Positions 49,942 to 64,000 of a DNA stretch of 64,000 nucleotides are shown here, piece by piece. The stretch spans positions 62,001-126,000 of the forward strand of contig JAIXWD010000006.1 in NCBI GenBank assembly GCA_027482225.1, given 5' to 3'. Each line of letters starts with the position of its first letter. Positions within the stretch are counted from its first letter, which is position 1. The notes beneath the pieces are model-generated. The model was not told the origin of the DNA, searched no databases, and saw only the letters and a program-made list of their open reading frames with translations. Source of the stretch: Bacteroidota bacterium (GTDB lineage Bacteria > Bacteroidota > Bacteroidia > UKL13-3). Position numbers and translations under genes: made by a program.

Positions 49942-51768
49942 TTATTCTTTTATAAGTTTACTAAAGTTATCTGTACCATTAACAGTTGTTTTAATGGTAT
50001 AAATACCTTTTGGTAATGTAGTAATATCCATGTCAGCAAAATTACTGCTAACATACTTTGCCATTACTGTTTGACCTAAAGCATTGTAGATTGTTACCTC
50101 TTGAATAGTATTGCTCGCAGTTATGCTAAAATTGTTATTAGCAGGATTAGGGTAAATTCCAATCGTCTCTGCATTAACCTTAGATACTCCTGTTTGTGTT
50201 TTTTTACTGAACAAAACATTATCAATGTAGGCAATTGATGTGCCCGAAGGAACACTTGCAAAAACCAATTGAGCAATATTTGATTTGGTAGTTAATCCAG
50301 CAAAATCAGCAAGAGAAACCGCTACGTGATTCCACGCATTTAAAGTTGGTGTTAAAGTTAGTTCATGTTCTTTATCATCACCACCACCAAATGCGCCATC
50401 AGCACCGAAATCAACTAATTTGTATTTGAAGGTGGTAGAGTTAGGTGTCCACAAATCAAACTCAAATGTATCCATGGTTGTAACGTTTAATTTGTTTGTA
50501 ACTGTTTCTACTCCAGCATAATCTAATCCGGTGTATTTTTTTACATCGTTAGATGCAATTTGAATATCAGTAAGTGTAGCAGCTGACCATGATGTTCTCC
50601 AAGTATCAACATTAACATTGGTATAAGCATTACTAAACAATGAAATAACATCGGCTGCTAATTTTGTTGGTGTAGGTGCAGCAGTGGTTGGCTCAGCATA
50701 TACGGGTGCTTTACTAAACATTACGTTGTCAATGTATACAACAGAAGTACCTGAAGGCACGCTAGCAAAAATAAGTTGTGCAATGTTAGATTTAGTTGTA
50801 AGACCTGTGAAATTAGAAATTGGCACTGCTATATGATTCCATCCATTTAACGTTGGAGTAACAGTAAGTTCGTGATTTTTATCATCACCACCATCAAATT
50901 TACCATCAGCACCGAAATCAACTAATTTGAACTTAAAGGTAGTAGAATTTGGTGTCCAAACATCAAATTCGAATAGATCCATAGCACTAATATTAATCTG
51001 GTTTTGTACCATTTCAATACCAACAAAATCTAATCCTGAGTATTTTTTCACATCATTGTTTGCAACTTTTATATCAGTAAGTGTAGCTGCTGACCATGAA
51101 GTTCTCCAAGTATCAATATTAACATTGGTGTAAGCATTACTGAATAAAGAAATAACATCAGTAGCCGGTTTAGTTGGGGTAGGTGCAGCAACCGTTGGTT
51201 CAGGTAAAGCATTACCAGCCGAGAAGGTTATGTTATCAAAGTAGGCTACTACATTTGATGTTCTACCTGATAAATTAAAGTCTGGGAAAATAGCAATTTG
51301 GCTGATACCTGTTGAAGATGGCTCACCAATTTTTCCAGAGAAATTGAATGTTAATTCTTCCCATTCGTTTATTTTAGTATTGGCCACTTTAATCTCGCCT
51401 GAAGATGCGTTACTATCTGTCACGAATTTGATTCCAACATCGCTGATAACTGATTTGTAAACCATAATTTTTACAATTGAATTTGATGCAGATAAAGTAA
51501 ACTTACCTATATCGCCTTTCAATGACTCGCAACCCGCCCAGGGCCTTCCGGCTTGCAAAGCAGTGAATTTTGCAACTTTGGTAGAGGTGTTAGGTGCAAC
51601 AGCACTTGGATTGTTTACAACTTGCAATGCTGGATTTGAGTCATTCTCAAAAGTTGTCCAGGTCCAGCTTGCACCCTGCCCGCCCAATTCAAAGTTAATT
51701 GGGGCGTTTTGTGAATACCCTATACAAAAAGTAAGTAAGGATAAACTAAAAGTAATAATTTTTTTCAT
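49942..51768 (-). CDS. T9SS-secreted protein with tandem carbohydrate-binding-like repeats
   Basis: From the ATG at 51768 the protein has 608 residues; a longer frame to 51813 lacks a signal sequence. Signal peptide (1-20, ending IGYSQ); a first beta-sandwich domain (about 22-185); two tandem domains of about 165 residues (187-353 and 356-522), each opening with PTPTKxAxDVISLFSN and ending YIDNVMFSK or YIDNVLFSK; and a C-terminal type IX sorting domain (about 530-608, IYPNPANNNFSI and LPKGIYTIKT). No catalytic domain is visible, so it is probably a surface or released glycan-binding protein. The same PTPTRPQADVKSIFSD domain occurs in the lipoprotein at 61664. Confidence 0.85.
   Translation of the reverse strand: MKKIITFSLSLLTFCIGYSQNAPINFELGGQGASWTWTTFENDSNPALQVVNNPSAVAPNTSTKVAKFTALQAGRPWAGCESLKGDIGKFTLSASNSIVKIMVYKSVISDVGIKFVTDSNASSGEIKVANTKINEWEELTFNFSGKIGEPSSTGISQIAIFPDFNLSGRTSNVVAYFDNITFSAGNALPEPTVAAPTPTKPATDVISLFSNAYTNVNIDTWRTSWSAATLTDIKVANNDVKKYSGLDFVGIEMVQNQINISAMDLFEFDVWTPNSTTFKFKLVDFGADGKFDGGDDKNHELTVTPTLNGWNHIAVPISNFTGLTTKSNIAQLIFASVPSGTSVVYIDNVMFSKAPVYAEPTTAAPTPTKLAADVISLFSNAYTNVNVDTWRTSWSAATLTDIQIASNDVKKYTGLDYAGVETVTNKLNVTTMDTFEFDLWTPNSTTFKYKLVDFGADGAFGGGDDKEHELTLTPTLNAWNHVAVSLADFAGLTTKSNIAQLVFASVPSGTSIAYIDNVLFSKKTQTGVSKVNAETIGIYPNPANNNFSITASNTIQEVTIYNALGQTVMAKYVSSNFADMDITTLPKGIYTIKTTVNGTDNFSKLIKE
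50203..51210 (-). repeat. In-gene tandem duplication encoding two near-identical domains
   Basis: Two segments with a period of 169 codons (about 507 bases) encode closely similar 165-residue domains. Stretches such as DVISLFSNAYTNVN and VDFGADG are identical. The similarity extends to DNA level, which points to a fairly recent internal duplication. Confidence 0.8.
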
Positions 51769-51824
51769 ATTTAGATTTTTTAGTGTTTGTAGTTGCAATA
51801 TCGTAAAAAACACTTAAAGTAAAT

Positions 51825-51839: not shown

Positions 51840-51873
51840 TTTTTAAATGAATTTTCTATAACATATTTGTGTG

Positions 51874-52599
51874 ATGAAAATTCCTAATCCTTACTACATA
51901 TCTGACTATAAATTACCATTAATTGAATACTTTGTTTTTGGCTTGTCCGTTGATTGTGTGGTTTTTGGGTATCATGAAGGCGAGATTAAAGTATTATTAA
52001 TACAGAGAGAAGCGGAGCCATATAGGGGACATTGGGCTTTAATTGGTGACCTTGTTGAGCCTGAACAAAACTTGCATGATGCTAGCAATAACGTGTTGGA
52101 AAAACTTACTGGGTTAAAAAATATCTTTATGAAACAATTTTTTACTTTCGGAAGTTTAGATAGGCATCCATTGGGAAGGGTGGTTACAGTTGGTTATTTT
52201 TCACTGGTAAAAAGTATTAGTTATCATCCCATAGCTTCTTCTTGGGCAAAATCTGCAGAGTGGTTTAATATCAATGATTTACCAGAATTAGCTTTTGATC
52301 ACCATACTATTTTATTAAAAGGCATTGAGACGTTAAAAAATGAGGTTCGACATAAACCTATTGGTTTTGAACTATTGCCAAGTAAGTTTACCTTGTTAGA
52401 CTTGCAGCTACTTTATGAGGCGTTACTTGGATATAAATTTGATAAGTCTAATTTCAGGAAAAAAATTCTAGAAATGAACATACTAAAACCGCTTAATGAG
52501 GTAAAGGATAATGTATCTCACAGGCCGGCCAAACTTTTTAAATTCGATGAGAAACGATATAGACAATTAGAAAAAGAAGGTTTTTCGTTCGAACTCTAA
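51874..52599 (+). CDS. Nudix-type transcriptional regulator (NrtR/AraR-like), catalytically inactive Nudix box
   Basis: About 241 residues from the ATG at 51874 (a GTG one codon earlier is possible). An N-terminal Nudix domain (about 25-150) is joined to a C-terminal winged helix (about 160-240; KFTLLDLQLLYEALLG and NFRKKILEMNIL). This is the layout of NrtR and of the Bacteroidota AraR-type sugar regulators. The Nudix box reads GDLVEPEQNLHDASNNVLEKLTG, where the REXXEE catalytic core is NNVLEK, so hydrolysis is unlikely and ligand sensing is expected. Position next to the glucan genes suggests it controls them. Confidence 0.85.
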   Translation: MKIPNPYYISDYKLPLIEYFVFGLSVDCVVFGYHEGEIKVLLIQREAEPYRGHWALIGDLVEPEQNLHDASNNVLEKLTGLKNIFMKQFFTFGSLDRHPLGRVVTVGYFSLVKSISYHPIASSWAKSAEWFNINDLPELAFDHHTILLKGIETLKNEVRHKPIGFELLPSKFTLLDLQLLYEALLGYKFDKSNFRKKILEMNILKPLNEVKDNVSHRPAKLFKFDEKRYRQLEKEGFSFEL

Positions 52600-53029: not shown

Positions 53030-54460
53030 TTATACAGATATTTCTCTGCCTTTATGGTCAAGTAATTGTTTCTTTATTTCATTGGCTTTTTTTTCTGTAA
53101 GATCATAATTCCACATCACCCACATGGCAATTAAGGTTCCCATAATGGGTACACCTGAGAAAAACAACCTTAGTCCTGTAACAGCTCCTTCAGGTTGAAT
53201 AGGTGCACCGGCTTTAAATGCAACAGCCGACATAATTACACCTGTTAATAATCCAGCTATTGCAAAACCAAATTTTACCATCCACCAGTAAATAGCTCCA
53301 AAAATGCCTTCTCGTCTTTTGCCGGATTCCAATTCATCCATATCACAAACATCAGCTGTCATCGACATCATTAATGTAAATAAACTACCAATTCCGAAAG
53401 AGAAGAACGGCAGTGCAAATAAAAATAAATAAGGTTTTCCAGGTATAAAGAGAAACCATAACAAAATATATCCTAAAACTGAGATTCCTTGACAAATCAA
53501 AAAGGCTATTTTTTTCTCTAGTTTTTTTGCAATCCAAGCAACTGTAGGAATAACAATAAATGCTGTAGCTAATGCACCTCCACATCCGAAAAGAGTAGGC
53601 CAAATACCTGCAGCAGCGCTATCTCCATCAAATAAATAATAAACAACAATAAAAAAAGTAAAGCCGGCAACTGTATTAAACGCGTTAAAAATTAAAAAAG
53701 TTGCTATGCATAATTTTCTAAATGGTTTGTTAGCAAATGCCTCTTTAAAACTTATTAAAATCTCTTTAAAACTTCCACCTATTGTTTTATAAGTAAGTGG
53801 CTTCAATGAATCATCAAATTTAGTTGATTTACTTTTAATAAAAATAGCCGGAACCATTGCTAAAAGCATAAATATTATACCAACCCAAATTGCCAGTGTT
53901 CGAGTTGCAGTATCAGCATTGGGAAACCAAGTTGGATCATACATGATTACCCAAAACCAAGGAGCAATTACCCAAGCAAATTGTCCAATCCATTGTGAGA
54001 TTGCCATGATGCTGGTGCGTTCGTGAAAATCATCACTCATCTCGTAACCCATAGCAACATAAGGCACACTGAAAATAGAAAGGCCGATGTGAAAAACAAG
54101 TGAGAAGATAAGAAAAAAAGTGAAGTTGTACATAACGCTATCTTCTCTATACAATTGCCACATAACAATAAATGCGATACCCATAATAATGGAACCCACA
54201 AACACATATTGTCTCCGCCTTCCCCAAACTGATTTGGTATTATCTGAAATGAATCCCATTATCGGATCAAAAAATGCATCTACAATTCGTGGCACAAAAA
54301 ATAATACGCCCCACATCCAAGATGGCATTCCTAAGTTCTCAACCAACACAACCATAAAGATACCTAGTGCTGCAGGAAACATCTGATTGGCAAGCATTCC
54401 GAGTCCAAATGCAATTTTTTGACTCATTGGTACTTTATGTGATAAATTGTTATTAGACAT
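53030..54460 (-). CDS. GPH-family (MelB-like) MFS sugar:cation symporter
   Basis: A 476-residue polytopic protein with about twelve membrane helices, of the glycoside-pentoside-hexuronide:cation symporter family. Features include GLGMLANQMF near the start, the loop DPIMGFISDNTKSVWGRRRQYV (about 66-87), and the second-half ADVCDMDELESGKRREGIFGA. It probably imports oligoglucosides produced by the glucanases across the inner membrane; the substrate is inferred from the operon. Last gene of the GH149-GH17-GH30 operon, two bases after the GH30 stop. Confidence 0.9.
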   Translation of the reverse strand: MSNNNLSHKVPMSQKIAFGLGMLANQMFPAALGIFMVVLVENLGMPSWMWGVLFFVPRIVDAFFDPIMGFISDNTKSVWGRRRQYVFVGSIIMGIAFIVMWQLYREDSVMYNFTFFLIFSLVFHIGLSIFSVPYVAMGYEMSDDFHERTSIMAISQWIGQFAWVIAPWFWVIMYDPTWFPNADTATRTLAIWVGIIFMLLAMVPAIFIKSKSTKFDDSLKPLTYKTIGGSFKEILISFKEAFANKPFRKLCIATFLIFNAFNTVAGFTFFIVVYYLFDGDSAAAGIWPTLFGCGGALATAFIVIPTVAWIAKKLEKKIAFLICQGISVLGYILLWFLFIPGKPYLFLFALPFFSFGIGSLFTLMMSMTADVCDMDELESGKRREGIFGAIYWWMVKFGFAIAGLLTGVIMSAVAFKAGAPIQPEGAVTGLRLFFSGVPIMGTLIAMWVMWNYDLTEKKANEIKKQLLDHKGREISV

Positions 54461-54462
54461 AC

Positions 54463-55971
54463 TTATTTATTATTTATGATAATTGTTTGTAATGCTTTGG
54501 CATCAATAGTAATCACTTTTGTGTTGTTGTCGAGTTGGATGGAAACATGGTAAGGCTCATCTGTTGGATTAAATAACGCCACAACTACACTTCCATCATG
54601 ATTTTGAATTGCAGTAGTCATCACCTCTTTATGGTTAACTTCACAACCAATTTTAACTGCACCCGGTCGCATAAACTTACTGAAATGTGCCATTACGTAA
54701 TAAATTGGTGTAAAGTAAACTTCATCATTTTCGGTATCAACAATAACTGGTGCTACACACCAATTTTTAAACCAATTAGGGCCACCTTGCGTATTTAAAA
54801 CCATATTCCAATCAATCCAGCCATTTACATAATTGTTCAAGCAACCTATGATATCACTTGCATACCTATTTATCGGAGCATATTTTGGGTGTAAATATTT
54901 TTCTTTTTCACTTGCCCAATCCCAACCCCAATCTGTAGCTTCTTTTGCCCAATACCAAGCATCATTTCGCCATTTAGGAACTTCGGAATCAATACAACCT
55001 TCGGTTTGTATTAAATATTTATTTGGCGATTTTTTATGAGCATATTGTAACGTTAACGGAAAATAATCAAAGGTGCTTTCATACCAATGCACAGCCGTTC
55101 CTGCAAAATATTTTGATGATTTTTCATCTCTATACATTTCATCTACCCATTCTTTTATTCCCCCTCTATTTTGATCATAGCCTAAAATATTTACCTCACC
55201 ACAGCCTTTTTTTTCAAGTGTTGGACCTAAATGGTTTTGAACAAAATCGGTCATTTCTTTGGGTGAAAACAAAGTACTTTCCCAATTATTGCCATTTCCA
55301 TGCGGTTCATTTATAACAGTTACCCCCCAAATATTTATCCCTTCTTTTTGGTAAGCAGATAAATATTTGGTAAAATACAAAGCGAATGCATCATAATATT
55401 TAGGCAACAGTTTTCCGCCAACAAAACTTTTATTTTCTTTCATCCATGGCGGAACTGTCCAAGGTGATGCTATAATTTTAAAACCTGCTTTAGAAATATT
55501 TTGAGCATCTAAAATCATAGGAATCAAATCACCCTTATCATCCGCTATGTTAAAATGCTTTAAATCTAAATCGTTCTCTATTTTGGCATATGTGTAATTA
55601 TTTAATGAAAAATCGCATGAAGCAATGTGTGTTCTGGTTAATGAATAATTTGCTCCTTTTTCACTGAAATAAGCATCAAGTATTTTCTTCCTATTTGGTT
55701 TGCTAACTTTATTTAATAAATACGCAGAAGCTTCTGTAAATGAACCTCCAAACCCAATAATTGTTTGAAACCTATTATTAGGATTGATATTGATAGTTAT
55801 TGTTTTTTCTGCAGGTTTAAAATCTTTTAGTAAAGTTAACGCATTCCCACTTTGTGAAGTTTCATAAACTTCTAATGTTATTTTTTTGGTATTATTACAT
55901 TGAAGATGAATGCAACAAATCATTCCGCATAAAAGGTTTTTAAAGAATAAATGATGTTGCTTCCTATCCAT
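54463..55971 (-). CDS. GH30-family glucosidase/glucanase lipoprotein
   Basis: A 502-residue secreted hydrolase with a hydrophobic N-terminus and likely lipobox (HLQC, near Cys25). The GH30 features are IIGFGGSFTEASA (residues about 70-82), acid/base Glu222 in VTVINEPHG, and nucleophile Glu324 in IQTEGC, with the C-terminal beta-domain. GH30 includes beta-1,6-glucanases and beta-glucosidases; in this locus trimming of 1,6-linked branches of laminarin is plausible but unproven. Five bases lie between the GH17 stop and this start. Confidence 0.9.
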   Translation of the reverse strand: MDRKQHHLFFKNLLCGMICCIHLQCNNTKKITLEVYETSQSGNALTLLKDFKPAEKTITININPNNRFQTIIGFGGSFTEASAYLLNKVSKPNRKKILDAYFSEKGANYSLTRTHIASCDFSLNNYTYAKIENDLDLKHFNIADDKGDLIPMILDAQNISKAGFKIIASPWTVPPWMKENKSFVGGKLLPKYYDAFALYFTKYLSAYQKEGINIWGVTVINEPHGNGNNWESTLFSPKEMTDFVQNHLGPTLEKKGCGEVNILGYDQNRGGIKEWVDEMYRDEKSSKYFAGTAVHWYESTFDYFPLTLQYAHKKSPNKYLIQTEGCIDSEVPKWRNDAWYWAKEATDWGWDWASEKEKYLHPKYAPINRYASDIIGCLNNYVNGWIDWNMVLNTQGGPNWFKNWCVAPVIVDTENDEVYFTPIYYVMAHFSKFMRPGAVKIGCEVNHKEVMTTAIQNHDGSVVVALFNPTDEPYHVSIQLDNNTKVITIDAKALQTIIINNK

Positions 55972-55976
55972 ATTGA

Positions 55977-57257
55977 TTAATTTATTTTGTATGCAGGTAA
56001 TTCAGCTACTTTCAGCAACTCTTCTTTTTTACCCCCATAGGTTTTAATGATAGGTTTTTTATCTCTTGTTAGTGTCTTAAAAGCTCCTTGATCGACTTTT
56101 TCCCACATGGCATATTTTGCTTTACCATCAACCGTAAATAAGCCAAAATGATTTTCTGAACCGTTTGGGTTTGTTACATCTTTCCATTTTTCATCAAATG
56201 CCTCAAAATAAAAACAGGTTATTTTTTCCTTTGTTGTCCAGTCTCTCACCAATTGATAATAAATGGCTGATTTGTATTCATCACATGCCCTCGAACCATT
56301 TTTTCCGTAATAACCATCAGAGTTTGATGCCCAACCGGTTTCCCCGATATGAATAGGTTTATCCACTCCAATTGATTTCATGTAATTATAAACATTATGA
56401 TATTGTGCCTTGGCATGAGTTATAGAATGCCACATGAGAGAATCTATTTTAGCTTGGTTACTTAATGTGTTTTCTTCTTCTGTTAATTTCCAAAACACTG
56501 GATTGTAATGGGTATCATGCATAGGATAAGTATGTATTGAAACAAAATCTACTGCTTGATATAGTTTGGTTAAATCTTCAACATGATAAGTAGTATCGCC
56601 ACCACCCCATGATGCGAAATTATCAGAGGAGGTAATCCATAAATCTTTGGGTAGGCCATTTTTTTTTTTTAGTTGTTGAAGATGGTTTACCCATTTTAAA
56701 ATAATTTTAGGTGTTACGTAATAACTTATTGCCCACTTAACCATAGCCTCGTTACCCACGGAAATCATTTTCACAATTTGAGGATATTTATTGGCTAAAT
56801 CTACTGCTCTTTTAATTTCGGAATTATTCGATACTTCATTTTCTTTCTCATGTTTGGGTAAAGCAGTTGTCCATGCATTTTCACATTCAATCCAAGCACC
56901 AAGCATCACATACATTTCGAAACTAGCATCCTCAGTTTGTAGTTCCTTTATGGCTTTCAATAAATTACTTGCCTCTGCATAGTGCGTGTTATAAGTACGA
57001 AGTAACTTGATGCCCGTTGCATGAAGTATTTTTATATCTTCCTTTATTTGGGTAATACTTGGTTGTGAATCTCTGTTGTTGGTGCGATAGCCACCGTAAC
57101 AAATTGCCAGGTAGTTTGTATCCCCTAAAATTTGTGCTGCTGTTTTGGGGTTACCAACCGTTTTTTCTGTTTCTTTTTTCTTTTGCGACAAGCCACAAGA
57201 AACTAAAATAATAGTTAAGTAAACAAATAGGCCGTATGGTAACCCAATTTTTTGCAT
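55977..57257 (-). CDS. GH17-family endo-beta-1,3-glucanase lipoprotein
   Basis: A 426-residue protein with a lipobox (IILVSC, Cys21) and a GH17-type barrel: the YGGYRTNNRDSQPSI start, acid/base Glu170 in SVGNEAM, and nucleophile Glu306 in HIGETGWAS. Bacterial GH17 enzymes hydrolyse beta-1,3-glucans such as laminarin. It probably acts at the cell envelope on oligo- or polysaccharide. It sits between the GH149 and GH30 genes, with four to five base gaps. Confidence 0.88.
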   Translation of the reverse strand: MQKIGLPYGLFVYLTIILVSCGLSQKKKETEKTVGNPKTAAQILGDTNYLAICYGGYRTNNRDSQPSITQIKEDIKILHATGIKLLRTYNTHYAEASNLLKAIKELQTEDASFEMYVMLGAWIECENAWTTALPKHEKENEVSNNSEIKRAVDLANKYPQIVKMISVGNEAMVKWAISYYVTPKIILKWVNHLQQLKKKNGLPKDLWITSSDNFASWGGGDTTYHVEDLTKLYQAVDFVSIHTYPMHDTHYNPVFWKLTEEENTLSNQAKIDSLMWHSITHAKAQYHNVYNYMKSIGVDKPIHIGETGWASNSDGYYGKNGSRACDEYKSAIYYQLVRDWTTKEKITCFYFEAFDEKWKDVTNPNGSENHFGLFTVDGKAKYAMWEKVDQGAFKTLTRDKKPIIKTYGGKKEELLKVAELPAYKIN

Positions 57258-57261
57258 GTTG

Positions 57262-60200
57262 TTATTTTAGAATTGATGAATTAATAAACACCGTGATTTG
57301 GACAATCTCACCAGTTCTACTGAAAATGTGCGAGCTTGTTTCTTTGTTTAAATAAAGGGATTCGTGCCTGCTTAAACGTCCATTTAGATGTTCAATTTCC
57401 ATGTAACTCTCAGTTGATAAACGATAAATGATTGGCACTTGACAAATGGTAAAACACAATGAACCGGGAACAGGTTTTGTTATTTTATGTTCATTATTTA
57501 CAGTTACATATCTGAATATCCTTTCTTCACTTGTAAACTCATCTTTAAGGAGTAAACACGGTTTAAAGTATAAAATTCCATCTGCTACAAAAACACCTAG
57601 CTCACCAAATCTACTTAGTATGTCTTCTTTTACTTGGCCGGTCATGCCGGGCTGTTGGGCGCCTTTATTACTTGGTGTGTGCGAGTATGGGTCGGTTGGG
57701 AATGCACCATATAATTTTGGAGATTTATGTACCCCAACACCTGCGTTTATTTCGTAATAGTGATCCAATAATTTACCTATTACCTCTTTCGACTCTCCTG
57801 CTTCAATAGCTTGTAGACATACCTCTTGAACTGCTAATTGCAATTTAGATACCATGTGCCAATAAATAGAACCAAGCCCTTCGTATCCATAAAAAGTACC
57901 CGAGCGCCCTGTAAATGATTTATGGTCGAACACATCCTCAAAAATAGCAAGCACTTGTTGTTGCTCTTTATCAAGTAGTGTAGCATATTTAGCAGTATCA
58001 AGTTTTAACAAGGCATCACTTAGATCCGCAGCATTTTTAAAATTACCATTAAAACGATAATCACCATTAATGTCTTGCTCAACAATTGATTTATCGCCTG
58101 CGGCAAGCATCATCTGCAACAACTCCGATTGTTGTACTGCTTGTTTTAGTAATTTATTTTTTGCTAAAAACTTCGGTAATGCCTTGTTGGGATAAAGTAA
58201 ATAACTGTATTGATCATGGCGGAAAAGTCTGCTATTTTTCATGCTATCCAACAATGCAAGACTATCTTCAGCACTTAAATAACCGGAACTCAACACAGCT
58301 ACTTGTCCTTCCAACATTTCGCTCAGGTAAGAAATAGTAACTTTTTTATCTCCATCTACACTCATCAAATTGTAGGCATGATACATGTTATCTACACGTT
58401 TATTTGCTTTGATAGTATGTTCAATAAATAATAAACTGACTTTAACAAATGCCTTTAGTCTGCGGTAGGAAATGGTTCGCTTTTCGCCCCAAAACGATTG
58501 CTTGTAAATATGTGTTCTGTAATCGCTGGCTGCTTCACCTAAACTATCTAATAGTTCTTTTCGCTTCTCATCGTTTATTTCACCATCAAATAAATGAGTA
58601 TTCTCTTCAAATGTGGCATGTACCTTTTTAAAGAATATGATTAACTCATTCGATAATTCAACGCGTTCCTCATTGGTTTGTTCAATCAATTTCTCAAAAA
58701 ATACTAAGAATCTTCGGAGGTAATAAAGCGTAACCATAGAAACCCCGTTTCCCACCAATGCATTATTCGCATCATTCCATTCCGGACGTTGGGTGTTCAT
58801 CCAAATTCCACCACCGGGAATAAAGTTTGAAAGTTTTGACAGGACTGTAGCAAGTATCTTTTCTATAAAATTTACCGTGTGAATTTTATCGTTTTGATTA
58901 AGTAAAAGAGTAGCATCAGCACCAATTATATCTCGTTTTGTACGGATTGCTGAATCCAACTTCTCATCAAACTCAATAGTATTTTTTGCATTCTTTAAAA
59001 TGTCTTGATATTTTTTAATTTTATATGGTACATTGGCATACACAAATAAGTCGTCATTAAACTGACTGCTTAGTTTACCCGGATAATACTTCTCGTTTAG
59101 CTCTAAAAGTTTAAGTAAATATATAATTTGGTGATCGCCCCAATATCCAATGTACGACCAAGGATTATCATGCTCTACGGTTTCCCAATCAAACCCACCT
59201 TTAGTAAGCCTGTATGGATTGTAGCCTTCAAATGTTGTTGCATTTAAAAACCGATGAATCATGCTGCGTGTAAAAGCAGGAAATGATATAGACAAAGCCT
59301 CCCAATTTTGAAAAATATCTCTCCAGTTGCCTTCATAATCTAAAACCTTAGAGTGGTCAACTGCACTTCTGGTATTAATTGAAAATTTATTCCAAGGTCT
59401 GCTAGGATCGCCATGTCTTCGGCTGAATTTTAGCGGTAGATATTCGGTACATAAACGATGAAAATTTTTATCATCAACCTGAGCAACTAATTTTTCCAAA
59501 TCAAAAACAGTGAATATTTCATTCAACCCGTCTAATAATGTTTTATGAGTTTCATAAACGTTTTTATTAGCAGCAGCGATGCAATTAATAAGGTCCCACT
59601 TTTCTATTTGATAGTTGTGATCAAAAATTCCACCACGCATGATGTTAAACAAGGTATTTGAAAAATGCCTGGTATCTCTGTAAACATCATTAGATAACTG
59701 AATACCATCAGCAGAGGCATTTAGTTCAATAAGTCGTTTTGATCCTAACTCAATATCTTGCTCTATTTGTTGTTGAAGATTAGGATTGGTTTTAATTTGA
59801 TGAATAAGTTCAACAACATTGGCCTGACTTTGATTCACATCAGCAACAATTAACCACTGCTTCTCGCTTTTGGGTGATATTATAATTTTTTGATTAATGA
59901 AATACGACCCTCTTTCAGCTTTCACATCTTCCTCTTGTTCGATATCCTTCCCATTTCTAAAAGCATTTAGTTGTAAAGATGATAATAGGTGTTTTGGATT
60001 TTCTAATCCAAGCGACCAAGCAACATTAGCTTTTAAAGCTTCACTTGGCTCTGCTCTATCAACAATAATAGCACTAAGTGCAAAAATACCTAATCCGGTT
60101 TCTGTGTCTAACTCGTTTCGTTTGTATGCATCAACCAGATTACTTGTAGCATTTTGCAAGTCGCTACCTACACCATCGGGCATAATATTTTGTATACCAT

Positions 60201-60714
60201 CAAGTATGCTTATCTGTAGTATTTGGTTTCCGATATTTTCGATGGTAGATTTTCTTGCAAATCCGTATACGTTACTTGTGTTCCATTCGTATCGGAATTT
60301 TAATGAAAAATCATGGTTGATTTCTTCGAAGATAATTTTGTTACCTATAGCGTTTTTATATAGGTTCCTTGAGATTTGATATAATCCTGATTGACGTTCC
60401 GAAAACGGTTCCCAAATATGTGTTTTATCTTGTTGGGTGATTTGAAATATTGATTTGGAACCGGTTATGTCGTATGACTCTGTAATTTTATCTGCAGTGT
60501 AATATGGAAATAATGCATACTCAGCGTTTTTCCTTCCTGCCGTAACTCCACCATTACTTGCTATAAACAACCAATGATTTGAATCACTAACTATACTCAT
60601 AAAAAACGAACGTATATCATCATGATTAGAAATACAGAAGAAATTCTCTCCCTTTATTTTTAATCTTTTTATTTGAACCTCAGTTTCTTGTTTACCTTGT
60701 TTTTGACTTGACAT
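57262..60714 (-). CDS. GH149-like beta-1,3-glucan phosphorylase
   Basis: A 1150-residue cytosolic protein (no signal peptide) of the GH94/GH149 phosphorylase type. The N-terminal beta-sandwich (about 1-330) contains DSNHWLFIASNGGVTAGR and FPYYTADKI. The (alpha/alpha)6 catalytic part contains KFSRRHGDPSRPWNKFSI and LDYEGNWRDIFQNWEAL, with the acidic residues of the expected catalytic Asp. GGGIWMNTQRPEWNDANNALVGNG follows. Length and motifs match GH149 enzymes, which phosphorolyse beta-1,3-oligoglucosides to glucose-1-phosphate. Catalytic assignment is by family resemblance. First gene of the four-gene operon. Confidence 0.78.
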   Translation of the reverse strand: MSSQKQGKQETEVQIKRLKIKGENFFCISNHDDIRSFFMSIVSDSNHWLFIASNGGVTAGRKNAEYALFPYYTADKITESYDITGSKSIFQITQQDKTHIWEPFSERQSGLYQISRNLYKNAIGNKIIFEEINHDFSLKFRYEWNTSNVYGFARKSTIENIGNQILQISILDGIQNIMPDGVGSDLQNATSNLVDAYKRNELDTETGLGIFALSAIIVDRAEPSEALKANVAWSLGLENPKHLLSSLQLNAFRNGKDIEQEEDVKAERGSYFINQKIIISPKSEKQWLIVADVNQSQANVVELIHQIKTNPNLQQQIEQDIELGSKRLIELNASADGIQLSNDVYRDTRHFSNTLFNIMRGGIFDHNYQIEKWDLINCIAAANKNVYETHKTLLDGLNEIFTVFDLEKLVAQVDDKNFHRLCTEYLPLKFSRRHGDPSRPWNKFSINTRSAVDHSKVLDYEGNWRDIFQNWEALSISFPAFTRSMIHRFLNATTFEGYNPYRLTKGGFDWETVEHDNPWSYIGYWGDHQIIYLLKLLELNEKYYPGKLSSQFNDDLFVYANVPYKIKKYQDILKNAKNTIEFDEKLDSAIRTKRDIIGADATLLLNQNDKIHTVNFIEKILATVLSKLSNFIPGGGIWMNTQRPEWNDANNALVGNGVSMVTLYYLRRFLVFFEKLIEQTNEERVELSNELIIFFKKVHATFEENTHLFDGEINDEKRKELLDSLGEAASDYRTHIYKQSFWGEKRTISYRRLKAFVKVSLLFIEHTIKANKRVDNMYHAYNLMSVDGDKKVTISYLSEMLEGQVAVLSSGYLSAEDSLALLDSMKNSRLFRHDQYSYLLYPNKALPKFLAKNKLLKQAVQQSELLQMMLAAGDKSIVEQDINGDYRFNGNFKNAADLSDALLKLDTAKYATLLDKEQQQVLAIFEDVFDHKSFTGRSGTFYGYEGLGSIYWHMVSKLQLAVQEVCLQAIEAGESKEVIGKLLDHYYEINAGVGVHKSPKLYGAFPTDPYSHTPSNKGAQQPGMTGQVKEDILSRFGELGVFVADGILYFKPCLLLKDEFTSEERIFRYVTVNNEHKITKPVPGSLCFTICQVPIIYRLSTESYMEIEHLNGRLSRHESLYLNKETSSHIFSRTGEIVQITVFINSSILK

Positions 60715-60812: not shown

Positions 60813-61628
60813 TTAAAATTCCTTATAAACCCTAACGTAATCAATTGTCATGGCTCCTGGGAATGGAGTATTCTCGTTAGGCGGGCCAACAAAATTTCCT
60901 CCAACTGCTATATTTAGTAAGATAAAAAATGATTGATCAAAAACCCATTCACCGGATGCATCAGCCGGAGTAACTCTTTTATACAGGTAATTGTTTACAA
61001 AAAAATCAATTTTATCCTTGTTCCATTCAACTGCATAAGTGTAAAAATCGGCATCAAATCGGCCATTTTGTAATGCGTAAGTAGAACTTACGGCTTGTCC
61101 GCCAGAGTATCCAGGACCATGAATTGAACCATAAGTTATATTAGAGAATTTCCCTTTTTGCTCCATGATATCAATCTCACCACAAGTTGGCCAACCAATA
61201 GTTCTGATATTATTACCCAACATCCAAAATGCTGGCCAAATACCTGAACCAGTTGGTGTTTTGATTCGAGCTTCTATTTTACCATATTTTTGAGCGAACA
61301 AACCTTCCGTTTTTAATCGTGCAGAAGTGTATCTGCCCGCATTATCTTTTAATGCCCTTATTACTAAATTGCCTTTACCGTCTAACATTACATTTTGACG
61401 ATTGTTGGTATATGTTTGAAGTTCATTATTTCCCCATCCATTTTGTCCTGTACCAAGGTCGTATGTCCATTTCAAGGCGTTTGGTGCTGTTCCTGAATCA
61501 CCATCAAACTCATCACTCCAAATCAATTCAAATTTTCTTTCTTGTAAAGTTTGTATCGGCTCCACTTCACATCCTGAAAGTGCGACAAGTGTAGTACCTA
61601 AGTATATTGTTTTATTTAAAAAATTCAT
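60813..61628 (-). CDS. GH16-family laminarinase lipoprotein
   Basis: A 271-residue lipoprotein (LVALSGC, Cys20, followed by acidic residues typical of surface export) with a GH16 jelly roll. The catalytic EIDIME is intact: nucleophile Glu151, Asp153 and acid/base Glu156, in the laminarinase-type signature with the extra Met. WSDEFDGDSG, GSGIWPAFWML and AVEWNKDKIDFFVN also fit. Endo-cleavage of beta-1,3- or mixed-linked glucans is expected at the cell surface. It is downstream of the glycan-binding lipoprotein. Confidence 0.93.
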   Translation of the reverse strand: MNFLNKTIYLGTTLVALSGCEVEPIQTLQERKFELIWSDEFDGDSGTAPNALKWTYDLGTGQNGWGNNELQTYTNNRQNVMLDGKGNLVIRALKDNAGRYTSARLKTEGLFAQKYGKIEARIKTPTGSGIWPAFWMLGNNIRTIGWPTCGEIDIMEQKGKFSNITYGSIHGPGYSGGQAVSSTYALQNGRFDADFYTYAVEWNKDKIDFFVNNYLYKRVTPADASGEWVFDQSFFILLNIAVGGNFVGPPNENTPFPGAMTIDYVRVYKEF

Positions 61629-61663: not shown

Positions 61664-63073
61664 CTACTTGTAGAAATAAATATTATCAAGAATAAAGTTA
61701 GGCCCACCGGTAATAATAATTGCTCCTAAATTACCCTTTTGATTGAGAATAGCTCCATTCAGCGGAATTTCAAAAGATTTCCAAACTCCAACTTGAAAAC
61801 CACTCAGAGTGGTTCTTAAATCTTTATCATCACCCATCGGGTTACCGGTATTTACATCTGTTTCAATGGTTTTATTTCCCCCTATATCTCTTATTTGAAT
61901 ACCAATGGTGGTTGATGCATTTTCCACATAAGCATCTATATGAAGAAATCCTAAGGTTGATGCATCTATTGTGTTTCCGGTGAACATGATTCCTGTATAA
62001 TTATTATTACTGTATTGCGCTACCTTTCCTGTGCTTGTAGTGAGAATTTCTGCCAACGTAGTAGAACCTCCAAAGCCCGGGGTAAAATTACTTTCTGTAG
62101 CATTGGTATACGTATCACTAAAAATGGACTTCACATCAGCTTGTGGGCGAGTAGGGGTTGGTGCATTTACTAAATCTCCTTTGCAATCTATAGTTAATTT
62201 GCCTTTTGCCGCAACACCATTAACAGTAGCAGTAATATCTGTTATTCCAATTTCTAATACGGTTACCACGCCATTATCATCAACTTTTGCAATTTTAGGG
62301 TTAGAACTTGTAAATGTAAAATAATATGATGAGGAAAGTACTTTTACATCTTGTCCAGTAACCAAATTAAACGTATTACTTACGCCTGTTATGTTAATGG
62401 TTGAACCAATAAACGCCTTGACGGTGCTTGTTTTTCCATCAAAAATATTAGGAGATGGTGTACCTACATTACCTAGTTTTTCAAACTTTATTTCATCAAA
62501 CCAAAGTGCATAACCTAAACCATTGGTGCCCTGAGTTCCCGCTGCAAACCAGAACATGCCTCTTTCATTTGTTAGTTTAGAGGGATCAGGAATTGGGATA
62601 ATTATTTTAGTCCAATTGGTTCCTACATTCACATTTTGAATAGAAACCCTGTTTTTATCTCCAAGATAGTCGATTCCAAAACCCACATCGCCTAGTTTTA
62701 CCCCAGTAGATGCCTTTACATAAAAAGTTAGCGCATCATAACCTGTAAGATTCCTCCCTGCACCATCAATTCTAAAAATCGCCCCCGCATAAGTACCTGT
62801 TGGATCTGTATTATTGGGTACATCAATTCTTATGGAGGCATTACTTTCAAAACCTTCCTTTGTATCTACTGAAAATACATCCGGTTTTGCGTCTGCGAAC
62901 GGAAAATAAAAATTTGAGCCTAAACCGATAAAGTTATCCGTAAAAATTGCAGCTGTTTTTGCAAAAGTGGGTAATACGGCATCATCAGATAACTTTCTTT
63001 CGCATCCCAATTGAAGAATTAAAGTGGCAGATACGATAAATATAATCTTAGTTCTTTTACCTAGAGTATTCAT
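61664..63073 (-). CDS. Glycan-binding-type surface lipoprotein
   Basis: A 469-residue lipoprotein (LQLGC, Cys24, then ERK). N-terminal beta-sandwich (about 45-205), a BIG2-like Ig domain (about 220-300; ITATVNGVAAKGKLTI), and a C-terminal domain (about 305-469) that opens PTPTRPQADVKSIFSDTYTN and is homologous to the tandem domains of the T9SS protein at 49942. No catalytic residues. It probably binds glucan at the surface, as SusE/F-type or surface glycan-binding proteins do. It lies just upstream of the GH16 gene. Confidence 0.75.
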   Translation of the reverse strand: MNTLGKRTKIIFIVSATLILQLGCERKLSDDAVLPTFAKTAAIFTDNFIGLGSNFYFPFADAKPDVFSVDTKEGFESNASIRIDVPNNTDPTGTYAGAIFRIDGAGRNLTGYDALTFYVKASTGVKLGDVGFGIDYLGDKNRVSIQNVNVGTNWTKIIIPIPDPSKLTNERGMFWFAAGTQGTNGLGYALWFDEIKFEKLGNVGTPSPNIFDGKTSTVKAFIGSTINITGVSNTFNLVTGQDVKVLSSSYYFTFTSSNPKIAKVDDNGVVTVLEIGITDITATVNGVAAKGKLTIDCKGDLVNAPTPTRPQADVKSIFSDTYTNATESNFTPGFGGSTTLAEILTTSTGKVAQYSNNNYTGIMFTGNTIDASTLGFLHIDAYVENASTTIGIQIRDIGGNKTIETDVNTGNPMGDDKDLRTTLSGFQVGVWKSFEIPLNGAILNQKGNLGAIIITGGPNFILDNIYFYK

Positions 63074-63105: not shown

Positions 63106-64000
63106 TTAGTTGTTAATATTTATTTGGATATAAGTGCGTATTTCCCATTCGTTGCCGTTCGGGAATCCAATCGCATTAGGGTTTGGTACGTATTGTCCTA
63201 AACTATTCATTGATAAGATAGGAGAGTACCTATTAGAGTATCTGTTTAACGTACGATAGGTTCCTCTTATACCAATTTTACTTCCTGGCATCATAAACCA
63301 ATCAGGTTTACTTACTTCAAATGACCAATCCCCAATTAGCTGAAGTGGGAATGTTTGGTTAAAATCTCTGTGGTAATCAAATGGTCCCCAATCATCAATT
63401 TTTGCAATCGTCATTAGTTTCATTTTACGGTATATAGTTCTAACGTCAATTCCATATCTTTTGATTGTCCTGGTATCACTGCCATTTGCTTGCCCATTAC
63501 CAAAATATACATTACTAATAAAACCCAATTCGGAATTCACTTTAGAAACTATCCTTGCATTAAATTCCCATAAGTCTTGAGCAGGTGCAGAGCCAGGAAA
63601 CACAAATGTGGTACGGCCATTCCCAAGTATACCAATAGCGGCATCTTGTAAAGTTGGAAGATGACGATATACAAATCCAGTACTCATTGCAAACTTGGCA
63701 TCTTCCATCCTATCATTATCCCACTCATACATCCAAGTTGCAGGTGTAGGATCATAGCTAAGTAAAATTTCACCAGCCATTGTTTCTCTATTTCCTCTTA
63801 CAGAAAAAGGATCGTCTAGGATATTTCTTGGTCGAGCAGGCGCTACAAAATTAGGCCCAATTGGACCCACTAACGGTTTCTGATATAAGAAATTAGGTGC
63901 AACTTGTAACTTACCTATGTTATAGGTAAATCCAGTAAGCGCATTATACATATTTCCGCTTCCTACATCCTTTAGTATCCAACCTGTAAAGGTTTTGGTT
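63106..64000 (-). CDS. C-terminal part of a large outer-membrane/barrel protein, cut by right edge
   Basis: An open frame continuing past the right edge; the internal ATG at 63951 is not a start since the frame is open to base 64000. About 298 residues are visible, rich in aromatic alternating strands (WMYEWDNDRMEDAKFAMSTGFVYRHL, TIAKIDDWGPFDYHRDFNQT), ending IQININN. The composition fits the C-terminal strands of an outer-membrane barrel. It is the gene before the glycan-binding lipoprotein, so it probably belongs to the glucan locus; no specific family is assigned. Confidence 0.6.
   Translation of the reverse strand, partial: TKTFTGWILKDVGSGNMYNALTGFTYNIGKLQVAPNFLYQKPLVGPIGPNFVAPARPRNILDDPFSVRGNRETMAGEILLSYDPTPATWMYEWDNDRMEDAKFAMSTGFVYRHLPTLQDAAIGILGNGRTTFVFPGSAPAQDLWEFNARIVSKVNSELGFISNVYFGNGQANGSDTRTIKRYGIDVRTIYRKMKLMTIAKIDDWGPFDYHRDFNQTFPLQLIGDWSFEVSKPDWFMMPGSKIGIRGTYRTLNRYSNRYSPILSMNSLGQYVPNPNAIGFPNGNEWEIRTYIQININN

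Follow-up and report, generated by a model that had tools for sequence, protein, structure and literature searches.

A predicted glucanase-barrel fusion protein heads a probable SusC/SusD-independent beta-1,3-glucan operon in a Bacteroidota bacterium

Results

Gene content of the locus

The window analysed was a stretch of 64,000 nucleotides from contig JAIXWD010000006.1 of a Bacteroidota bacterium, and the features found in it are given in Table 1. A preliminary description, made from the sequence alone, had placed four contiguous genes with gaps of 2-5 bases at 53030-60714, ie a GH149-like phosphorylase, GH17, GH30 and a symporter. All four genes are indeed carried by the minus strand, with 4, 5 and 2 bases between neighbours, but the boundaries were too narrow. 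Together they make up only the downstream half of a run of seven genes, in the order 1039-aa fusion, Big_2 lipoprotein, GH16, GH149, GH17, GH30 and GPH, with successive gaps of 32, 35, 98, 4, 5 and 2 bases. The fusion, lipoprotein and GH16 genes, upstream on the same strand, are the outer-membrane half of the operon, which had been missed; the 5' end of the fusion gene is outside the window. An adjoining susC/susD pair, by which a classical PUL is recognised, was not present among the neighbouring ORFs.

Table 1. Features of the operon and its downstream flank, in window coordinates unless marked otherwise. Genes of the operon are listed in the order of transcription.
Feature	Position	Strand	Basis or remark
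Fusion protein, C-terminal part inside window	63106-64000	-	Whole gene G000:C17:125106-128225, 1039 aa
Big_2 lipoprotein, probable surface glycan-binding protein	61664-63073	-	PF02368; locus co-occurrence
GH16 endo-beta-1,3-glucanase lipoprotein	60813-61628	-	PF00722, LSGC lipobox, EIDIME motif
GH149 beta-1,3-glucan/oligoglucan phosphorylase, cytosolic, 1150 aa	57262-60714	-	NF058639, 6HQ6, active-site residues
GH17 endo-beta-1,3-glucanase lipoprotein, 426 aa	55977-57257	-	PF00332, 6fcg, LVSC, GNEA/GETGW
GH30, glucosylceramidase-like (GH30_1 type), 502 aa	54463-55971	-	PF02055 2e-78, PF17189, PDB relatives
GPH/MFS_2 inner-membrane oligosaccharide symporter, 476 aa	53030-54460	-	PF13347 2e-63
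NrtR/AraR-type Nudix winged-helix transcription factor	51871-52599	+	PF21906 3e-25, PF19368, PF00293 above cut-off
Weak 21-bp operator-like palindrome TTAAAGTAAATAATACTATAA	51814-51834	.	Between regulator and T9SS gene
T9SS-secreted protein, true start probably about 51768	49942-51813	-	PF18962

Phosphorylase, hydrolases and symporter

A profile search, which had been proposed as a check on the 1150-aa protein, placed it squarely in GH149. The NCBIfam model NF058639 matched residues 10-1144 with 1756.9 bits (E=0) against a cut-off of 1150. The characterised and crystallised Pro_7066 (6HQ6) matched over the full length in phmmer, and was the sole strong solved relative. The active-site residues published for Pro_7066 are all kept: R465-D466 (the sugar-phosphate RD motif) and W646-N647-D648 (the catalytic WND), both located by way of the numbering of the structure paper, and E945 and H953, which correspond to E951 and H959 in that paper. 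Of the surface-site residues, Y987 and E988 are retained and D984 replaces Glu. Catalytic Glu residues had been reported for the operon; these are found in GH17 (GNEA and GETGW) and GH30 (NEPHG and QTEG), but the catalytic residue of GH149 is an Asp, D648. No signal peptide is visible in the sequence of GH149, in agreement with the apparently cytosolic location originally given. At the level of sequence the phosphorolytic reading of the operon is supported, and two phosphohexomutase-family genes elsewhere in the genome are one possible route for the glucose-1-phosphate. The remark that GH149 enzymes are often labelled hypothetical holds for the plasmid records examined, but NCBIfam now has a GH149 model. 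A plasmid origin of the gene was considered and rejected, the 10 matching plasmid records, mostly from Vibrio, all being below 60% identity and not relevant here. On an Emticicia plasmid (NC_018743.1) the annotation splits GH149 (L129:6699-10126) into two overlapping hypothetical proteins, which points to a frameshift or a sequencing error.

The GH17 protein is close to FbGH17A of Formosa (6fcg, 4e-172), is above the cut-off for PF00332 and has a good lipobox, LVSC. A lipobox had also been assigned to GH30, where it is only likely, because the hydrophobic N-terminus carries a poor one (HLQC) and relatives have ..IQC, ..TRC, MSC or MAC. The two enzymes had been taken together as secreted glucanases; this stands for GH17, but GH30 looks more like a beta-glucosidase of the GH30_1 type. 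It matches PF02055 (2e-78) and PF17189, and its closest PDB relatives are glucosylceramidases, which fits GH30_1. Members of GH30_1 have been described as beta-1,6-glucosidases (PMC13188888), and the GH30_1 enzyme FbGH30 of Formosa is a debranching exo-enzyme (PMC6246565). By analogy, the GH30 described here is a probable exo beta-1,6-glucosidase with a debranching role.

The PDB chains closest to GH16 are beta-1,3-glucanases and laminarinases. The symporter matches PF13347 above cut-off (2e-63), and TIGR00792 with 194.5 bits, under the cut-off of 231. It is unfused and the genome holds a single GH17, so that GH149 may be the main cytosolic oligosaccharide route in this organism. A longer symporter of 777-792 aa was observed in the relatives L033 (1972-4320), L034, L035, L036, L038, L061, L082 and L099. 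The one tested, that of L033, is an MFS-GH17 fusion, and the GPH-GH17 form of sister genomes is 782 aa long. Such a fusion occurs in Formosa (PMC6246565) and in the sister species, but not here.

The fusion protein

Pfam and NCBIfam gave no real family for the 1039-aa protein. It was modelled from an alignment with AF2 (pLDDT 78, pTM 0.55; the relative placement of its two domains is not fixed by the model). Residues 20-395 form a GH158-like domain of clan GH-A. The top Foldseek match of the model was BuGH158, and the predicted enzyme domain aligned to GH158 laminarinases with Z of 25-26.5 in VIA-align; at the sequence level the match to 9oro (GH158) was weak and partial, with E about 3e-4. 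Residues N167, E168 and E269 do not vary among 80 full-length aligned sequences, the closest of 573 matching stretches in GTDB genomes; judged by motif and by place in the strands, their counterparts in BuGH158 are the catalytic N136, E137 and E220. The two proteins have the TIM-barrel fold and the catalytic Asn/Glu/Glu in common (6PAL, PMC7157763), at about 15-21% identity in structural alignments. In contrast to BuGH158, the fusion has no C-terminal Ig-like domain; in the model the TIM domain leads through a helix (400-431) into an outer-membrane barrel.

The barrel region, residues 434-1037, contains 24 predicted strands, antiparallel and amphipathic, a few of them with low confidence. The inside/outside alternation over the 24 strands was 2.79, compared to 1.17 +/- 0.17 for controls (maximum 1.83) in 2000 draws of segments from the protein's own N-terminal domain. 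Foldseek matches included the outer-membrane barrels FepA, BtuB and MOMP, and the C-terminal domain is predicted to be an outer-membrane beta-barrel of about 24 strands. In the model short turns and long loops mostly alternate, with strand 1 entered from the side of the short turns; the simplest placement of the GH domain would then be the periplasm.

Occurrence of the fusion in other genomes

Bacteroidota commonly carry full-length relatives of the fusion: an essentially full-length copy was present in 27 of 296 sampled genomes of the phylum, and relatives were not found in viral contigs. Among the GH149-bearing genomes, ie that of the window and its relatives, 10 of 11 have it. Gene neighbourhoods were counted in the 51 loci for which no less than 7 kb of upstream and 8 kb of downstream sequence was available: GH16 was present in all 51, the Big_2 lipoprotein in 47 and GH149 in 43, and GH17, GH30 and MFS in 36, 32 and 30, respectively, these last being undercounted where the locus ends early. 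In a record of Bacteroides finegoldii (L130, NZ_OY725931.1) the fusion is followed by a hypothetical protein, GH16 and, farther on, BglX, and GH149 is not nearby. That order points to a core of fusion, lipoprotein and GH16 with variable terminal enzymes. Although titled as a plasmid, the same record includes rpsA and a gene for valine-tRNA ligase, and so looks like a chromosomal piece.

The adjacent regulator

A Nudix regulator gene accompanies the locus in several relatives. The Nudix regulator AraR of Bacteroides, which shares the Nudix-like domain and winged helix with the protein described here, is sugar-responsive (PMC4666351), which makes a similar role plausible here. The effector and target differ, and the link to beta-glucan is one that we infer. 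The protein would probably act as a repressor of the operon. A 21-bp palindrome, TTATAGTAAATTTAACCATAA, lies at G000:C17:128298-128318, 73 bases ahead of the fusion gene. It is the sole perfect match in the genome to a consensus from several relatives, own site included, and most close relatives carry the motif upstream of their own fusion genes. The regulator and this palindrome are a candidate regulator-operator pair. The second palindrome, TTAAAGTAAATAATACTATAA, was the top match in the window and its position is kept in relatives, but its score is near the random maximum; allowing its three mismatches, it is one of 18 places in the genome compared to 22 for the control, and alone it is not significant.

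Beyond this palindrome, the gene for a T9SS-secreted protein adjoins the Nudix gene in relatives too. A domain to which Pfam assigns no family occurs twice in its product and is shared with the Big_2 lipoprotein; residues 47-161 of the product gave a weak match to a PKD protein (8qx6). It is a candidate co-regulated glucan-binding protein.

Discussion

Proposed mechanism and its alternatives

The reading we favour, and hold to be rather probable, is that of a seven-gene operon for beta-1,3-glucan of the laminarin type which works without SusC/SusD; we infer its substrate, transport route, topology and regulation, and likewise the binding of glycan by the Big_2 lipoprotein. Glucan would be bound and cut by GH16 and the lipoprotein, at the surface or in the periplasm. 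Fragments would pass through the fusion's barrel of about 24 strands, with the GH158-like domain cutting at its periplasmic mouth, and would be shortened and debranched by periplasmic GH17 and GH30. The GPH symporter would import the oligosaccharides, cytosolic GH149 would convert them to glucose-1-phosphate by phosphorolysis, and a phosphohexomutase could yield glucose-6-phosphate, with the Nudix-type repressor controlling the operon.

The barrel could instead serve to anchor the protein and not as a pore, in which case this would be an ordinary laminarin locus supplied by a TonB-dependent receptor whose gene lies elsewhere, and the fusion only a barrel-anchored enzyme. Published GH149 loci do show this enzyme set, the genome has 21 TonB-plug domains, any of whose proteins could be a glucan importer, and one relative (L113) has SusC and SusD side by side with the fusion. 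That relative is the only one of the 51 loci with SusC/SusD nearby, as judged with one query pair, which could miss divergent ones. The genome itself (99.9% complete) gave no SusD with PF07980 and PF14322, although several relatives carry SusD elsewhere in theirs. About 24 strands is also far more than an anchor needs, and short turns on the side of the N-terminus put the GH domain in the periplasm. Three stand-alone homologues of the GH domain (50-57% identity) are lipoprotein-like and lack a barrel; one of them, in L123, sits in a SusC-SusD-GH16-GH149 locus, and the pairing of a barrel-less lipoprotein with SusC/SusD suggests from gene content that the barrel takes the place of SusCD. We regard the ordinary locus as somewhat unlikely.

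The substrate could be a mixed-linkage or fungal beta-1,3/1,6-glucan in place of algal laminarin, with no change to the mechanism. Many carriers are non-marine by their record titles (ponds, reactors, Chryseobacterium), and branched fungal glucans would be possible substrates of GH30_1 and GH16; on the other hand, GH17 closely resembles FbGH17A, which is active on laminarin, and beta-1,3 linkages are required by GH149. We give this substrate roughly a one-in-three chance at best. That GH149 works in the synthetic direction, building a beta-1,3-glucan store from glucose-1-phosphate, is highly improbable: phosphorolysis can be reversed in vitro, and EgP1 builds oligosaccharides up to DP 12, but the gene runs in the same direction as those of exported glucanases and of an importer, in an order conserved across Bacteroidota, and no glucan synthase was seen in the operon.

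The SusCD-independent operon may also be one instance of a widespread Bacteroidota route to beta-1,3-glucan, in which a glucanase-barrel, partnered by GH16 and the lipoprotein, couples diffusion across the outer membrane to cleavage on the periplasmic side. This wider proposal is tentative, at slightly less than even chances.

Comparison with published loci

Loci combining GH149 with GH16, GH17, GH30_1 and MFS are already published for Bacteroidetes, and the four-gene operon first reported is of this described kind. Kuhaudomlarp 2018 places Bacteroidetes GH149 both in PULs and in susCD-less clusters, with GH16, GH17, GH30_1 or GH3, and MFS_2 in related Alteromonadales or type II GH149 clusters (PMC5827456). 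The phosphorylase family and the neighbours GH16, GH17 and GH30_1 are common to the present operon, which differs from those PULs in its lack of susCD; the excerpted text of that paper makes no mention of a fusion gene. The variant-B/1 laminarin PUL of Formosa has an FbGH17A-like GH17, GH30_1, MFS, GH16 and GH149 (PMC6246565, PMC10108472). SusCD is characteristic of it and absent here, although one NS4 genome in that work is also without SusCD. During blooms in the North Sea, expression of such loci is high (PMC10108472). The laminarin PULs of Muricauda share GH17, GH30_1, MFS, GH16 and GH149 with the operon, and contain in addition a gene called GH2; their regulator is of the LuxR type (PMC13188888), compared to Nudix here.

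A keyword search of the full texts of articles found no published GH-barrel fusion in laminarin loci. The fusion may nevertheless have been noticed before under the names GH0 or GH2. An unclassified GH0 is listed in marine laminarin loci (PMC10108472) and may be this protein, and a homologue in another record is annotated as a glycoside hydrolase family 2 TIM barrel-domain containing protein. The unexpected feature here is the enzyme-barrel fusion predicted, on the model, as the product of the first gene of the operon, in a genome without detectable SusD.

Significance

Few algal sugars are as abundant as laminarin, and explanations of how Bacteroidota take it up rely almost wholly on SusC/SusD. 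If the fusion does replace SusCD, it would account for sugar import by CAZyme clusters which lack susCD, and would give a name and a mechanism to a gene annotated as GH2 and possibly to the GH0 of marine loci. GH149 would provide the ATP-saving cytosolic end of the route. Carriers which can be cultured, Flavobacterium for example, allow each step to be tested.
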